Positions 50,533 to 59,065 of a stretch of DNA of 64,000 bases are shown here, piece after piece. Origin of the DNA: Acanthamoeba lenticulata (Eukaryota; Discosea; Longamoebia; Acanthamoebidae); the NCBI GenBank assembly GCA_002179805.1, contig NAVB01000036.1, forward strand, positions 62,001-126,000, written 5' to 3'. Position 1 is the stretch's first letter, and each line of letters begins with the position of its first letter. The position numbers were made by a program, and so were the translations under genes. The notes below the pieces were generated by a model, which had not been told where the DNA came from, made no database searches, and was given only the letters and a program-made list of their open reading frames with translations.

Positions 50533-53500
50533 TCAGCCACGGCGCTTGGAGAGACGCCAGGCGTTGGGCTCGCGATACTTGTCAAAGAGAGGCTCGATCT
50601 TCTCCATGCGCTTGCGCTTGGAGAGCTTGGTCGGGTCGGAGACGCGGTAGAACTTGGGGGCGAACTCGACGAGCCACTTGGGCTCGATCATGAGGACCTC
50701 GCGCATGTACTCCTTGGTGGTGAGGACGAGCTCGTGGTAGATGACCCACTCGGGGTTCTTCTGGAAGAGGGCCGACGACGGGTGGATATATACAGGCTGG
50801 CCTTCGGTGAGGGTCTTGTAGCCCTCCTGCGGGTCCTTGCGAGCGGCGTGGGCGAAGAAGCCGCTCACGATGGCCTTGCGCACGGCGCTGTAGTTCTTGC
50901 CCGCCGAGGAGACCTCCATCTTGTAGCGGTCCATGATGGCGAGGAGCTGCTTGCGGATGTCCTGCGCGCGGCGCATGGAGCGGGCCTGGATGAAGTTCTC
51001 GTAGCACCACGGGTTGGAGAAGTTGTTGGACTTCCAGGCCTCGTAGACGGCGAGCAGGGTCAAGTGGTCGCCCTCGACCTGGTGGAACTTGGCCTTCTTC
51101 TGGTCGGCCTGCGCCTGCTTCTCCTTAGGCCGGTAGAACACGTTCTGCACGGAGAGCATGGCCACGATCGTGAGGATCTCGTCGGCGCAGCCCAGCTCGA
51201 CCGACGTGATGAGCATCTTGGACAGCTGCGGCTCCAGCGGGAACTCGGCCATCTTGCGGCCGAGCCGCGTGAGCAGGCCCTCCTCGTCGAGCGCGCCCAG
51301 CGAGTAGAGCTGCTCCATGGCCACAATCAGGGTCTGCACCGGCGGCGGGTCCATGAAGTCGAACCCGAGCAGATCGTTGATACCCATCGCCTTGAGCGTG
51401 AGCACCGTGTTGGCCAAGTTGGTACGCTGGATCTCGGGCACCGACGTGGGCAGCATCTCATTCTTGTAGGCCGACTCCGTGTACAGGCGGTAGCACTTGC
51501 CCGGGCCCGTGCGGCCGGCGCGGCCGGCGCGCTGACGGGCGGCAGCCTGCGAGATGGGGCACACGACGAGCGAGTCCATTCCCATCTTCGGGTTGTAGAC
51601 CTTCTGCTTGACAAAGCCCGGGTCCACGACGTAGTAGATGCCGTCGATGGTGACCGAGGTCTCGGCGATGTTGGTCGCCACGACGACCTTACGCGAGCCC
51701 TTGGCCGCCGGCTCGAAGATACGCGTCTGCATCTCCGACGGGAGGGCCGAGTAGACCGGCAGGATGACGAGCTCGGGCACCATGGGGCCGAGCGACTTCA
51801 TGCGTTCGTAGAGGATCTGGCACGCCGTGTCGATCTCCTCCTGGCCCGTGAGGAAGAGGAGGACGTCGCCGGGCGGCTCCGAGAGGTGGATCTGCATGAC
51901 CGTGATAAGAGCGGCGTCCAGGTAGTCGGTCTCCGGCGTCTTGGTGTAGAGGATCTCCACGGGGAAGGTGCGTCCGGGGATGGTAAAGATCGGGCAGTTG
52001 TTGAAGTAAGTCGAGAACTTCTCGGCGTCGAGCGTGGCCGACGTGATGATGAGCTTGAGGTCCTTCCGGTTGGTGGTGGCCTGCTTGAGCAGACCGAAGA
52101 GGACGTCGGTGTGAATCGTGCGCTCGTGGGCCTCATCGAGCATGAGCACCGAGTACTTGGACAGGTCCGGGTCGAGCAGGCACTCGCGGAGGAGCATGCC
52201 GTCGGTCATGTACTTGATCTTGGTCTCCGGGCTCGTGCAGTCCTCGAAACGGATGGCGTAGCCCACCTCCTGGCCCAGGCGACAACCAAACTCCTCAGCC
52301 ACGCGCTTGGCCACGGACATGGCGGCCACACGACGGGGCTGCGTGCAGCCGATCATGCCGCGCGAGGCGTAGCCAGCCTCGGCCAGGTACTGGGTCATCT
52401 GTGTGGTCTTGCCGGAGCCGGTCTCGCCGATGACGACGAGGAGCTGGTTGTCGTGCATGGCCTTGAGCAGCTCCTCGCGGAGCTTGAAGATGGGCAGGCT
52501 CTCGCGCTGCTCGATGATGGAGGCCTTGGTGGCCTGGCCGTAACGCGCGTTGGAACCGCCCAAATAATTCTTCTTCCACTCGGGCAGCTCATACGTGGGC
52601 GCGCCGATGCCGCGCAGCTCCTGCGCGATGTGCCGCTCGCCGGGCTCCGGCATGGGGTCCTCCCACGGCCGGTTGAGGTCCTTCGGGATCGAGTCTAGCA
52701 TTTGCTTGCGCTGCTCCTCACGCAGCTCGCGCCGCTCCTTGGACAGCGCCGACTGCGTCATGGCCGCCCGCTGCAATGAGCCGTCCGGGTTGCGCACGAC
52801 CTTGATGGGCGACAGCTGCACGTGGCTGAAGCGCGTCTGTCCGCGCAGGAAGGGCGCCTCAACCTCGCTCAGCTCGACCTCGAGCTCCTCTTCGTTCTCC
52901 TCCACGTTGTTGAGCACGCCGTTGGCCTCGTCGAACCCGGGCATCTCGCGCGCGTCGACCACGCCCGACGCCGCCAGCTGCTTCCACTCCCACCTCTCCG
53001 GCGACGACATGCGCTTGACCGGCCGGTGTGGCGTCGAGTCGTCCAGCGCCGCCGCCGATCGCAGCTTGGCGCTGGGCGCGCTCGGGTTGTGGCTGGCGTC
53101 CTCGTCCTCGCTCTTGCGCGGCATCAGGTCCTTGCCCGTCTCCTGGTCGACTTCGCGCATAGACAAACTGATCTTCTCGCCCGCTACGCCCAGCACCTTG
53201 ACCTTAACCCGCTGGCCGCGCTTGACGGCGTCGTTGGCGTTGGTCAGCCGTCCACCCGCCCGGATCTCGGTGACGTGCACGAGGCCCTCCTTGCGCCCGC
53301 GGACGCCCTCGAGCGACACGAAGCAGCCAAAGTCTTTCACCGTCCGCACAGCACCCTCGTAGATCTTGTACTTGACGGGTTCGTCGTCCTCGCGCGGCGG
53401 CGCCTTGAACGAGCGACTCTCGCGCTCTCGGCCTCGGTCCCGGTCGCGTCCATAGCGGTCCCCAGGGCTGCGGCTGCGACTCCTGCGGCTTCGGTGGTCC

Positions 53501-54078
53501 CTCCGGTCTCTGTCGTAGTCATAATCTCGATCCCGCCTGTCGCGGTCGTAGTCTCTGCTCCTGCCATCTCTGTCTCGCTCACCACCATCTCTATCCCTCT
53601 CCCTGCCATAGTCCCTCTCGCGAGCAGCTCGGTCGTTCGGTGGAGAGTCATCACGCTTTCGCTTCCTGTCGTCCAATGCGGGCGCCGCGGGTTCCTCCTC
53701 TTCCTCGACGAGCTTCATCGTACGTGCCTCGTAATTGTCAGGCACAGCCAATCCAGGAAATTGAGCAGCCAGGACGTTTGAATGAGGCTTGGCTGCTTGG
53801 CTCGATGATGATGACGAGGAACCCATCCCGCTGTGCGCCTTGGAGGGCTTCATTCGTTGGATGATGTGAAAGAGTTTTTCGACCAGCACCTCAGGGAAAT
53901 CAGCTCCATTCTCAGACAGCGCTCCCGAAAAAGCCGGGAGGGTGGGGTTCTTCTCAGCGATGTCGACGATGAATTCAGCGAGCACCTTGTCGCTCATGCC
54001 AGCACCCAAATGATTTTCCAACTCAGTGCATATTTTAGAAACGAGCGAGAGAAGCTGCAATTTCTCGATTTCCTCCAT
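50533..54078 (-). CDS. DHX8: DHX8/Prp22 DEAH-box spliceosomal helicase, 1181 aa, intronless
   Basis: Prp22/DHX8 releases spliced mRNA from the spliceosome by pulling on the 3' exon. Start taken at ATG 54078 ([20 protein letters not shown]), which matches the family N-terminus; the frame stays open to 54279. Order: N-terminal helical domain ([20 protein letters not shown]), an Arg/Asp/Ser-rich RS-like region (residues 140-230), an S1 RNA-binding domain ([40 protein letters not shown]), EWEKxx-type linker blocks ([20 protein letters not shown]), then the helicase. Motifs: [32 protein letters not shown] (DEAH), [44 protein letters not shown]. Then winged-helix, ratchet and OB-fold end ([40 protein letters not shown]). 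Every block is intact. It is unusual here in having no intron at all. Confidence 0.96.
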
Positions 54079-55518
54079 GTTCGAAGTCAATCTGTGGGGC
54101 GATGAGGAAGCCTTTTGCTTCAGATGCTGCGGCCAGCAAAAATATCGGGTGCCGGAAAACGTAAGGAAAAAGGCGGAGAGCAGGAAAAAAGTCTCGCTAT
54201 TTCCGCCGCACCCGGAATTAACCAAGTTGAGCGGCATGCCCTGCAGCTGGTGAGAGTTTCTTGATATCATCATCGTCAATCAGGGGTTCTTGCTGGCCGT
54301 GAGCTTGTGACGCAGCTTTGTCCAAGCTCGCCAGGCCGGCAGTCAATTTCGTAGTGATATTCCATCAGTGTCATCAGCCTTCGCGCTCACGAGTATCTCT
54401 CACCTTTTGTGTCTTCGCCTGCTGCCGCATTTAAAAATCAAGATGATCAGTGGCAGCACATGCCCCTCTCACGTGACGGTACGAGACCCAGTTTGATGTT
54501 CGACTCCCGACAGGACAAAGTCAAGCTGAGGTAAGGTGAGGTTGAAAGAGGTGCAGTGACACTGGAAAGAATACAGCAAGAAACATTAGTTGAGACCTTA
54601 TGAAGACATTTCGGTCTTTTTTGGCCAGTAAGCTGGACGCTGCAAGCTGCCCGCGGTCTTTCCACGCCAATCAACGGAGCTTAAGATGATCGGCATCTTA
54701 TCCATGGTATGCAAGGTAAGGCCAGGATTGACCCTTTTTCAAATTCTTGTGAGGTTGTTTGCGTGGCCATTCGCCGCGGCTGACTACAGCGGAGAGCTGG
54801 TTACTCACGTGCAAGGGCGAGCAGAGGAACCCCTTGCTTTCGGCTTGACGCCAGTAGCGCCAACCCGTTTGCATGCCGCACCTCAGACCTCCCTCCTGCG
54901 CAGCACTGTGACTCAGGGGCACACCCATCATGATGGATCTTCTAGGGGCGCTCGCAACGCCCGTCTTCCTTCTGGTCTTCCCTCTAATCACCCTCCTGGT
55001 CGGGGTGCTGTTCTACTTCACTCCGACTGCTATGAGGGCCCATCTTGCCACTACGATGCTGAGCTTCGCGCCCATCCTGGTCTCTCTCGCTATCTTTTGC
55101 CTTGACACCGACCTACACAACGCTGCCCAATACTCGCCCGCTCCGTCGTCGTGACTGCGCGACCCCGAAAACCTCAAGAGGAGAAGTAGCGAAGCGCGAT
55201 GCGCCTCCCTCTTCCACCACAGCTGCCAAACACGACCACGACCCAGAAGTTCTGTTTTTTGTGCTGAAAACAGCCGCGCTCGGTGAGCGCCAGATGTGGC
55301 CTCGGGCATAGCGGGTGACCCAAGCGTCGCTACCGACCCTCATGTAACACCACCCACCAAGGTCCTCGTGTAGGAGAAGAAAGAAGAAAGGACCAGTTTT
55401 CATTTTCTTAAAATTTTGTGGAATATATTCACATCTAAGGCTTCTAGCTTCTCACGTAGTGGTGGTGTGGCGACACCACAACTCCGCGGGCCGACAAGCT
55501 GGGTTGCGCGTGCTCTGC
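54079..55518. other. 1.44-kb region between DHX8 and the FHA gene
   Basis: It contains the DHX8 upstream region, one weak hydrophobic ORF (54930-55154, listed separately) and the 3' flank of the FHA gene. I found no tRNA: a GTTCGACTC string near 54494 has no pairing stem. Confidence 0.4.
54930..55154 (+). CDS. possible small two-pass membrane protein, 74 aa
   Basis: ATG 54930 to TGA 55154. The frame is strongly hydrophobic in two blocks: LLGALATPVFLLVFPLITLL plus VGVLFYFT, and TTMLSFAPILVSLAIFCLD. The product ends polar, YSPAPSS. The clean division into two membrane segments with a short polar loop (PTAMRAHLA) argues against a chance frame. There is no family match, and no splice or expression signal was seen. 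Confidence 0.35.
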   Translation: MMDLLGALATPVFLLVFPLITLLVGVLFYFTPTAMRAHLATTMLSFAPILVSLAIFCLDTDLHNAAQYSPAPSS

Positions 55519-58500
55519 TTAGGGCTCGTACCGGTAGGCGATCAGCTCTAATTGCGCGTCTGTTGCAGCGCGCACCGCGGGTCAGCCCTCAGCCTCTTGG
55601 CGGAGCTCCGCATGCCGCGGCGATGAAAAGCAGTCTCGAAAGCGTACCAACAGGTCGTTCCATCACGCTCATGACGAGGGAGAGCTCCTGCCCGGGCATC
55701 AGCTTGCGCTTCTTGTTTTTGCCGATCAAAGTATCGTTGATGAAAGTCCCGTTCGTGCTATGTTGTTGTGTTTTTGTTGTGTTTTTTGGTGTAAGGCTTG
55801 GGCAAAGTCACCACCACGACAGCGAGCTCACAGCCGCACCTGAGGTCCAGCACTACCAGATCGAACTCGGCGGCCGGGGCAGCAGCGGGCGGCGGCCGCG
55901 GATGCCGGTACTGCTGCAGGTGCTGCGGGTTCTTCCGATAGCACGTGGCCCCATACCTGTCCGCCGCGCGCACGTGGGGTGACGTGTGAGGACAGCGCCA
56001 GGCACATTAAGCAGAACTTTGTTGTTATCGTCGTCGATGTTAACGTACCGGCACAAAGGGGCGTCGGCGGGCGCCGGGTCGAGCGAAGGCGACGCGCTGT
56101 TGCTCTCGTCGCCCTGCGCGGCCGCCGCACGGCGGCGCACGACGGAGACCCGGCAGTGCCTGGTGCTGATGTGCGAGCCCTTGTAGCGACACTTGGGATG
56201 GCACTCGGTAGTGTGCCGACCCATCAACACACCTGTGCCGTGCGGCGTCAACATCAACAGACGTCAGTTGGGCCGAGGTCAGAGCTGGACGAGAGAGTTT
56301 CGCGAGACGGACCCGATTCGGGGATGGCCACGTTCGGGTACTTGGGGTTGAGCGACATGAGCCGGCCGAACGGGGCCTCCGCCTCATCCTCGTCATCAGG
56401 CGAGGGACGCTCGCCTGGCCACCACAGGCGTCGATAAGCAAGGCAAGATAAGGTAAGACCGCCGTCTCCACACATGGCGGGGCTCGGGGCTGGATGTACC
56501 CGTGCCGGGGCGGCTTTGTGTGCTCGAGTCCGCGACCCGAGACTTCTTCCTCTGCTGGCTGCCGCCCTCCTGCAGCGGCTCTTCTTCTTCCTCGGCCTCG
56601 TCCTCGTCCTGTTCGGAGCACCTGCGGTTTCTGCCGCCGCCCCGAGAAGAGGTGGTCGCCTCCTCCTTGGATCTTCGCCGTTTAGGCGCGGGGCCGCCGC
56701 TGGCGGAGGTCGTCGACCTCTCCTCCGCCTCCTCCTCGTCAGGATCTTCTCGAGCGCCCGTCGACCTCTTTCTCGACTTTGACTTGGGCCCTTCGAACCC
56801 TGAAAATCCTCGAAGCCCGCGCGACCCTGGCGGTCAGCGGCTTGTCTGGCACGCGCGGGGAGGAGGAGCCGGGCGGGGGCGGGTACCGGGCGACTCGCCC
56901 TCCAGGTCGAGGGGCGGCGTGGGGTCGTAGTGGAGGGCCTCGACCAGCGTGGGCGCCTCGGCCATCGCCATCACAGCAGCCGCATCGGCGTCGTCCGCGC
57001 TCCGCCTCTTCTTCAGCTGTTGTTGCTTTCGCTGCTGTGATCTGGCGTCGGCCTTCTGCTTACGCTTGCGGTTTGGCGTCGACGCCGACAACGTGTCGAC
57101 ATCAAGCTGCGTGGGCAGGCTGTCGATCTGGGTCGGCTGGCCGTGCACGGCGTCGATCTGCGTTGGGTCTTCCTCCGCCTCCTCTTCGTCATGACGAAGA
57201 TGAGAGTAGCGGCTCCCCTGCCGAAGGTCGTCAGCCTGCGTGGGCGCGCTGCCCATGAGCGCAAAGCCATCGATCTGCGTCGGGATCGAGCCGAGGCTCT
57301 CGGCCTCCATGGAGTCGGACAGGATGAGCAGGGACTGGTCCAGCTGCGTCGCCGCCGTTGAGCTTGCCAAGTCGGGCTGCGTCGCCGCGCGGAGCAGCTG
57401 CGATGCCGCCGAGGACCCCGACAGCGGGCTGTCGGTCTGCGTGGGGCCCAGCACGAAGGACGCATCGAACTGCCGGGGCTTGGCCGCGGCCCGCCGCGAC
57501 CGCGCGTTGACGGGCGAGGCGTCACTGTCACTCTCGTCCTCCTCGCCATTGTGGTCTTCGGCATCGCTGTCGCCGCCGCGCTGCTGGAACGGGCTGCAGT
57601 CTGCGTCGTCGACGTCGTCCTCCTGCGTTGACGCGTCCAGCAGCAGAAGCGAGGTCTCCAGCGAGTCCTCGGGCCCACCAGCCTTGACGCCCAGGGGCGA
57701 GGGCTGCGGCGTGGCGCGGGCGCCCGCTCGGCCCCGCGGCCGAATCGGGCTGAGGCCGCCTGTACAGCCGTCGGCCTGCGTGGGCCGGCCGAGCAGGTCG
57801 ACCGGGCTGCACGTGTCCTCGGTCTGCGTGGGCCGGCCCAGGACAGCATCGAGGTCCTCGTCATCGTCGTAGACCACCGACGAGTCGCCCTGCGATGCCG
57901 ACGGCGATGCAAACAGGTCAGGCTGCGTCGCCTGCGACATCAGTCGTCGCCGCTGCTGGGACGACGGCGTTATTGTGGTGGAGGTGACTACTGGACTTGA
58001 GGACACAGCGGCCGCGGCGATGATGGACGTGAGAAGCTTCTTGTGCTTCCTCCCCTGCGCGGTGGGCCGATTTGCGTCCCTCTTGCCCCGCCGCACCGGC
58101 GAGGGCACGGGAGAGAGGCTGAAGGGCGAGCGCGGCGGGCCGTCAAATTGCGTGGGTGCCTCCAGCATGTGCGCGCCGCTGAGCGGTGACCGCGGCGGCG
58201 TGGCCAGCGGCGAGGGCACGGCCGACGACGAGGGCGACGACTGCAGCGGCGACAAAAAGGCTGACGAGTCCGGCTGCGTGGCCTCTTCGAGCAGGTCCAG
58301 GTAGTGCGAGACGGGGTTGGGGCTGAGCGACGGCGAGCGGGAGCGCGAGCGCGAGCGCGACGAGGGGCGGGTCTTGGCGCGGCCGCGCGACGGCGGCGCG
58401 GGGGAGTCAGCCTGCGTGGGCGCCTCTACGATGTCCAGCTGCGTGGCGGTGGTGGCCAGCAGTGGAACGTCGGTCTGTGTCGGCAGTTCGTCGAGGGCTA

Positions 58501-59065
58501 GTGCGCCGCCACGTGAGGGCGGTGTTGCGAAAGCCTCGTCCCGGTCCTCGTCCTCCTCGACTGTCCTTGCAACCTTCGTGGCCTCCACGGCTTTTGCCTT
58601 GGCGGCAGCGACGGTTCGACGACCTTTCGGGAGCGCCCTCGCCGGCTCATCCACAGTGGCGCACGACGCCTTGCCCTCGAGGGCCTTGATCATGTTCTCC
58701 GCCTTTCGCTTCGTGACCGCCTTCTTTCTTGTTTCTGTTGGCGATTCCTTCCCTGACGTTGCTGGTGACACCGCCTCTGCCTCGGGCTGTGGCTGCGCCG
58801 GAGCTGCTTGCTCCTCGTGTTCTTCTTCGCTCTTCCCTTTCTCCTCTTCCTCACCATCTTCTCTGTAACTGTCGTCATCTTTTGGCTTCGTCTTGGTCGC
58901 TCTTGTCTTGGCCCTTTTTGCTGCGGGGCGAGAGGTTTTGGTAGCCGCTGCCTTGGTGGTGCCCGCAGGCGCCTCTTCTCCGCCGCGCTTCTTAGACACT
59001 GCACTCTTCATCCAAGGCAGCTTGCGCCCTGCTGGACGAGGCGCTGTGGCCAGCTTGTCATCCAT
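55519..59065 (-). CDS. TQ-cluster protein with C-terminal FHA domain (MDC1/Rad53-substrate-like)
   Basis: ATG 59065; exon 1 runs to about 56892, then shorter exons to stop 55519-55521. Residues 1-185 are basic/acidic, nuclear-type (SKKRGGEEAP; RPAAKRAKTRATKTKP). Residues 196-655 carry 17 copies of TQx(D/E), usually (A/P)TQx(D), with Ser/Pro, acidic and RS linkers (RSRSRSRSPSLSPN) between. Then comes a charged linker (KSRKRSTGAREDPDEEEAEE). The FHA domain lies at about 56390-55519: FGRLMSLNPKYPN, VLMGRHTTE (GR), SHISTRHCRVSV (SxxH), a disordered insert, FDLVVLDLSTNGTFINDTL (NG) and GQELSLVMSVMERPV, LELIAYRYEP. All three phosphothreonine-reading motifs are intact. TQ is the site of ATM/ATR-type kinases, and an Asp at +3 from pThr is preferred by Rad53/Chk2-class FHA domains. 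So the protein may bind its own phosphorylated repeats. No kinase or BRCT domain follows. Confidence 0.85.
57101..58480 (-). repeat. coding array of 17 spaced TQx(D/E) motifs
   Basis: Motif forms in order: TQTD, TQLD, TQAD, TQPD, TQFD, TQPD, TQTE, TQAD, TQED, TQTD, TQPD, TQLD, TQID, TQAD, TQID, TQID, TQLD. Spacing varies from 3 to more than 60 residues. On the plus strand it shows as recurring CTGCGT(G/C)GG. A decayed APTLVEA sits just after the last copy. Variable x and spacing mean conservation of motif, not slippage. Confidence 0.9.

Follow-up and report, generated by a model that had tools for sequence, protein, structure and literature searches.

Acanthamoeba lenticulata encodes a protein of 1010 amino acids in which a long array of TQx(D/E) motifs is joined to a C-terminal FHA domain that carries a PBZ-type zinc finger nested inside it. 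Its gene lies in a stretch of 64,000 nucleotides, hereafter the window, and the whole layout, that is, the TQ array and the FHA domain with nested PBZ, is kept in two relatives, P0001 and P0002. Recurrence of the layout in both suggests, as far as sequence can indicate, a self-assembling damage hub, and we see about an even chance that the protein is a DNA-damage mediator or scaffold under two damage signals, recruited by PAR, switched by ATM/ATR and equipped with an FHA domain that binds pTQxD in trans. The union of motif and reader in one protein had been proposed in a first-pass annotation of this DNA and is borne out here.

The gene occupies positions 55519..59065 of the minus strand, from a start codon at 59065 to a stop codon ending at 55519; these limits, as given by the first-pass annotation, agree exactly with the start and stop codons of our gene model. 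Seven exons (59065-56887, 56799-56500, 56414-56313, 56232-56049, 55956-55840, 55757-55648 and 55559-55519) are separated in the model by six introns of 80-92 bp, all of them GT-AG. The gene is duplicated on another contig of the same genome (C1594) as a copy 97% identical to it and with an intact reading frame, where all six donors and six acceptors are kept, and P0001 and P0002, which were compared as protein sequences only, continue across the positions matching the exon joins. The last exon ends in ...ELIAYRYEP, likely the closing strand of the FHA domain; both relatives stop at about the same point as the window protein, and therefore no kinase or BRCT lies beyond the FHA. The nearest large open reading frame downstream encodes a helicase (50533-54279, minus strand; a single open frame of 1248 amino acids with an S1 domain), which we take to be DHX8/Prp22-like. 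In intron 4 (55957-56048 of the window, compared with L024) the alignment of the two gene copies has a 30-base gap, although the exons on either side of it show one base difference each. An actophorin-like exon of this genome agrees with PDB 1ahq, an Acanthamoeba protein, in 80 of 84 residues.

The relatives were identified with the FHA-PBZ part as query in a word-based search, which covered 5.8 billion proteins and gave P0001 (E 2e-54) and P0002 (E 9e-23); the FHA-PBZ part of one relative that shares the layout is only 29% identical. Their contigs are short (longest 3562 and 3348 bases), and both sequences may be transcript-derived. A third protein search, which scored only the 8000 candidates with the most common words, recovered P0002, together with an FHA-containing protein of diaphanous-like type, and missed P0001, and further relatives can therefore have escaped. 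When viral contigs and genome contigs were scanned with the FHA-PBZ module, 376 and 167 pattern matches respectively were obtained, of which none was confirmed, and these scans gave no sign of a viral or prokaryotic relative. Our conservation sample consists of three sequences and one near-identical second copy.

The TQ cluster spans residues 196-655 (57101..58480, minus strand), and our recount of 17 TQx(D/E) in these 460 residues matches the number first reported. An SQ/TQ cluster domain is understood as several SQ/TQ within about 100 residues, and at this density the window protein has one. In total there are 18 TQ, of which 16 are TQxD and one is TQTE; the single exception, at residue 820, is without an acid at +3. 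The excess over shuffled sequence is pronounced, since 20,000 shuffles of the same composition contained on average 0.54 TQx(D/E) and never more than 5, while an acid at +3 in 17 of 18 TQ has a binomial p of 2e-13. Successive motifs are 7-75 residues apart, and the rules of the array are Thr over Ser, Gln at +1 and an acid at +3, with a varied +2 position. Ser is commoner than Thr, yet the motifs use Thr: TQx(D/E) outnumbers SQx(D/E) by 17 to 1 in the window protein, 15 to 2 in P0001 and 12 to 0 in P0002, as expected for a reader of pThr only. The residue preceding TQ is Pro, Ala or Ser throughout the window protein (18/18) and P0001 (16/16); P0002 has Ser, Gly, Pro or Ala at this place and, in one motif, Arg. 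The restriction to Thr fits an FHA reader, the Gln fits ATM/ATR-family kinases and the Asp at +3 fits a code of the Rad53-FHA1 type. A tandem-repeat artefact was rejected: Tandem Repeats Finder (score 30, 57000-58600) detected three short arrays of 6 or 11 bases, at 58333-58360, 58380-58400 and 58534-58555, which cover no TQ motif, and the flanks of the 17 motifs differ, so the array is not a recent DNA repeat.

The same rules hold in the relatives, where TQx(D/E) accounts for 15 of the 16 TQ in P0001 and all 12 in P0002; relatives that lack the excess, which the first-pass annotation had held to count against its reading, did not appear among the three sequences. Against P0001, the T, Q and D cells of the motifs are identical at 47 of 48 places and the rest of the cluster at 174 of 351; against P0002, the corresponding figures are 23 of 39 and 64 of 244. 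In P0002, then, the TQ sites have moved and the rule is unchanged. The two copies within the A. lenticulata genome differ in the cluster (residues 191-657) by 11 synonymous and no nonsynonymous substitutions, compared with 13 and 13 in the N-terminus and linker (Fisher p 0.003) and two and one in the FHA-PBZ part. The TQ cluster is under purifying selection, and a chance reading frame was rejected on this account. Outside any domain, a linear motif YDPTPPxDL..SP (residues 713-726; 56888..56929, minus strand) is recognisable in all three proteins with the consensus Y(D/E)PTPP(L/F)(D/E)(L/F)..SP, and is possibly a proline-directed kinase site or docking site. A basic motif near the N-terminus, RKLPWM(K/R)SAVxKKR (residues 14-27; 58985..59026, minus strand), occurs in P0001 and not in the P0002 sequence compared; to our eye it faintly resembles the APLF-type Ku-binding motif, the spacing of which it does not match.

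The FHA domain is interrupted between its SxxH half and its NGTF half. The first half (residues 842-892; 56138..56370, minus strand), with GR at 865-866 and SxxH at 883-886, is split by intron 3; the second (residues 956-1010; 55522..55856, minus strand), with T962 and N963-G964, spans introns 5 and 6; and the PBZ between them (residues 919-942; 55896..56059, minus strand) is split by intron 4. Assignment to the FHA family is based on a Pfam FHA match together with the pThr-binding residues GR, SxxH and NG (963-964); the first-pass annotation was right to describe a complete C-terminal FHA domain with these motifs, but it overlooked the nested finger. With the PBZ in place, the Pfam FHA match reaches 29 bits and concerns the second half only, whereas after excision of the PBZ it reaches 38 bits over positions 2-66 of 67, and the excised sequences of all three proteins hit Pfam FHA. 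Compared with the PDB, the profile of the PBZ-excised FHA domain matched CHFR best (E 3.5e-9), followed by Chk2 (5.6e-9) and Rad53 (1e-7). The finger itself is Pfam PF10283 (E 4e-11 in the whole protein, 4e-12 in a 169-residue piece); it shows the zf-CCHH pattern Cx(F/Y)GxxC...H...(F/Y)xH, scores 43.1 bits against a Pfam cut-off of 22.7 and aligns without gaps to the PBZs of APLF. The Lys/Arg that the PBZ consensus carries three places ahead of the first Cys (PMC4030884) is absent from the window finger. Across all 1010 residues, Pfam listed only PBZ and FHA at E up to 1, with no BRCT, kinase, RING or macrodomain. In FHA domains the beta5-beta6 hairpin is the end opposite the pThr loops. The PBZ follows the strand with SxxH and precedes the strand that leads to STNGTF; from this topology it would sit in that hairpin, away from the pThr pocket, and it likely adds PAR as a second input, which goes beyond the first-pass reading.

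R866, H881, S883, H886, T962 and N963 are invariant in the three proteins, and both relatives retain the nested PBZ; the pThr-pocket residues, the substitution of which had been raised as an objection, are thus kept in all three. Past a short gap, SRLSNKH of Rad53 pairs residue by residue with SHISTRH of the window protein and THISTKH of P0001, which puts the invariant His881 (56171..56173, minus strand) at the place of Rad53 Arg83. In Chk2, the FHA domain prefers Ile at +3. Of the preference for Asp at +3 that the first-pass annotation ascribed to both kinases, the Rad53 FHA1 part is documented (PMC4037201) and the Chk2 part was not confirmed; Arg83 is the residue credited in that source with reading Asp+3. 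A His in its place is a weaker Asp reader than Arg, and could have a structural role.

The genome encodes PARP and PIKK domains, candidate sources of the two signals that such a protein would sense. An exon-by-exon search gave 47 matches to the PARP domain and 10 to FATC, and one of the FATC ends has ATR, Mec1 and ATM as its closest matches. There are also 14 PBZ matches (L009-L022), which by equal scores form six pairs and two singles, or about eight genes, and agree with the known expansion of PBZ proteins in Dictyostelium, where seven proteins are described and Ku70, Chk2 and Rad17 are among those named (PMC8529158, PMC5087659). By eye, a BRCT-like stretch follows the PBZ of L013, and an FHA fragment of APLF/aprataxin-like type is found close to the PBZ of L011/L064. 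A gene for an RNF8-like protein with FHA, coiled coil and RING (L006/L007, on C1414 and C557), for which RNF8 is the best PDB match, has L-M-V ahead of the SxxH serine, close to the Leu-Met-Ile of RNF8 that is said to give a Tyr/Phe preference at +3 (PMC4037201). Hence, its product looks a poor TQxD reader, and as a candidate for that role it was rejected. Elsewhere there are Chk2-like proteins that have a PBZ at the C-terminus in addition to FHA and kinase domains (P0003, P0004), and a Chk2-type FHA kinase was not found in the A. lenticulata genome by a weak search, exon-wise with small flanks and partial scoring, in which the Pfam FHA search overlooked even the window's own exon-split FHA. 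With P0004 as query, 85 matches were obtained with 83 of 680 candidates scored, all of them from query residue 96 on and so none in its FHA part; the FHA of P0003 hit two loci, both weakly (E 0.02 and 0.07) and both with a stop codon in the aligned stretch. In the examined flanks of 11 FHA loci, a set that leaves aside the locus C652/C1001 and second copies of other loci, neither of two kinase patterns was matched. An FHA-like stretch, LDDVSTNGTF, occurs in two copies (L065, L066) with a stop inside the match and may represent the end of an exon or a gene in decay.

Several known systems share parts of this architecture. Metazoan MDC1 likewise combines an FHA domain and an ATM-type TQ cluster in one large mediator, but its FHA is at the other end of the protein, its motif is TQxF where the window protein has TQxD (with Phe at +3 in 0 of 18 TQ), and it has tandem BRCT where the window protein has a PBZ and, by Pfam, no BRCT. 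FHA-dependent oligomerisation has been reported for MDC1 (PMC6858307), and the window protein is best read as analogous to MDC1 and not as a member of its family. Chk2, Rad53 and Cds1 also have an SQ/TQ cluster ahead of the FHA, the PDB matches of our FHA include Chk2 and Rad53, and oligomerisation linked to the FHA is described for Chk2 (PMC2811157); however, Chk2 and Rad53 have a kinase after the FHA and the window protein has none, its cluster is much longer and consists almost entirely of TQxD, and its PBZ is nested in the FHA, unlike the C-terminal PBZ of the Chk2-like P0003 and P0004. APLF and Dictyostelium APL unite FHA and PBZ in one DNA-damage protein (PMC5087659), but there the FHA is N-terminal, of the aprataxin/APLF/PNKP kind, and the PBZ separate, whereas the window protein has its PBZ within an FHA at the C-terminus and possesses a TQ array as well; furthermore, APLF has tandem PBZs as opposed to one, and APL a macrodomain (PMC5087659), for which Pfam gave no match in the window protein. 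CHFR, the best PDB match, shares FHA and PBZ but has a RING, which Pfam does not find here, and differs from the window protein in the nested PBZ and the TQ array. ASCIZ/ATMIN resembles the window protein in having a disordered region rich in TQ motifs, but it is an LC8 client and the window motifs break the LC8 binding rules. In the available passages of the open-access literature (PMC) we found no description of an FHA domain with a nested PBZ or of a protein uniting a TQxD array with an FHA domain.

Could the array be something other than a set of kinase sites read by an FHA domain? The CK2 consensus is S/T-x-x-D/E, and every TQx(D/E) complies with it, as would acidic phosphosites of any generic kind in disordered sequence, to which the FHA would be unrelated; but CK2 would neither fix Gln at +1 nor favour Thr over Ser. 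Gln stands at +1 in 17 of 20 T-x-x-(D/E) of the window protein, 15 of 23 in P0001 and 12 of 18 in P0002, and an acid at +3 follows only 3 of 52 non-TQ Thr of the window protein. This enrichment led us to reject a CK2-only array, and we regard the CK2 explanation as quite improbable. Even less credible, to a degree that we would barely entertain, is an LC8/DYNLL docking array in the style of ASCIZ, with TQ as an LC8 anchor instead of a kinase site. The TQT anchor and the favoured Pro, Asp or Glu two places after Gln do reproduce the TQxD register (PMC6607443), but a buried Thr-like residue is needed right after Gln and prolines before the anchor limit binding, according to the same source. T, V, I or C after Gln with no Pro before Thr is found in 0 of 17 window motifs, 1 of 15 in P0001 and 0 of 12 in P0002; an LC8 array was rejected, since no window motif fits a TQT-type anchor without a preceding proline, and it would leave the FHA in the same protein unexplained. 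Preference for Thr over Ser, a fixed Gln and an acid at +3 are better fitted by a PIKK writer and a pT-x-x-D FHA reader than by CK2 alone or LC8.

Granted such a writer and reader, the FHA domain probably reads the phosphorylated array of its own protein, but it may read a partner instead. Possible, though somewhat improbable, is an array that is a docking platform only, recruiting another FHA protein, a Chk2-like kinase or other, when phosphorylated, while the window FHA has some unrelated pThr protein as its partner. In this manner, phosphorylated TQXF of MDC1 recruits RNF8 (PMC6858307), an RNF8-like gene is present in the same genome and FHA-kinase-PBZ proteins are known in P0003 and P0004; against this, the L-M-V of the RNF8-like FHA, in its likeness to RNF8, suggests a poor reader of TQxD, and the search of the genome for an FHA-kinase, weak and exon-wise as it was, found none. 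A cis switch, in which the FHA folds back onto its own phosphorylated TQxD and closes the molecule for autoinhibition or reset, is sterically possible across the roughly 186 residues between the last motif and the FHA; we think it unlikely, since 17 redundant sites exceed the needs of a simple switch and the FHA domains of Chk2 (PMC2811157) and MDC1 (PMC6858307) are described as promoting oligomerisation.

The mediator or scaffold reading would operate as follows. At a lesion, PARP activity would recruit the protein by way of its PBZ finger, which the beta5-beta6 hairpin of the FHA would present on the side opposite the pThr pocket, and ATM/ATR-type kinases would then phosphorylate as many as 17 of its TQxD sites. 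In trans, pTQxD would be bound by the C-terminal FHA of a neighbouring molecule, with His at the +3-reading position; where the protein is dilute, binding would also occur in cis. Damage would thereby make a multivalent assembly out of a long, flexible chain. Other FHA proteins may dock on this assembly, and PAR chains could cross-link it by binding several of its PBZs. As each chain has a single reader but up to 17 sites, a hyperbranched product is expected, and we infer growth of this kind in place of the head-to-tail polymer envisaged in the first-pass annotation. The precedent of MDC1, whose TQXF sites recruit RNF8 once phosphorylated by ATM and whose FHA promotes oligomerisation (PMC6858307), counts in favour of a mediator or scaffold; the His as a weaker Asp reader, the missing consensus Lys/Arg before the Cys, the TQ at residue 820 and the 23 of 39 identical cells in P0002 count against it. 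More tentatively, and with more doubt than confidence, we propose that one composite domain acts as an AND gate, sensing PAR and PIKK phosphorylation together, with the FHA reading its own 17 pTQxD in a one-protein focus on damaged chromatin.

In animal damage foci, the scaffold (MDC1), the readers (RNF8, Chk2) and the PAR sensors (APLF, CHFR) are separate proteins. The window protein fuses the mark array, the reader and the PAR-type finger, the latter two as one nested domain, with a +3 code that is apparently set differently from that of the RNF8-like protein of the same genome, and it offers a compact, testable system for possible cooperation between phospho-multivalency and PAR. If the AND-gate reading is true, this would be an amoebal damage focus made by one protein, without the need of an MDC1-type BRCT contact.
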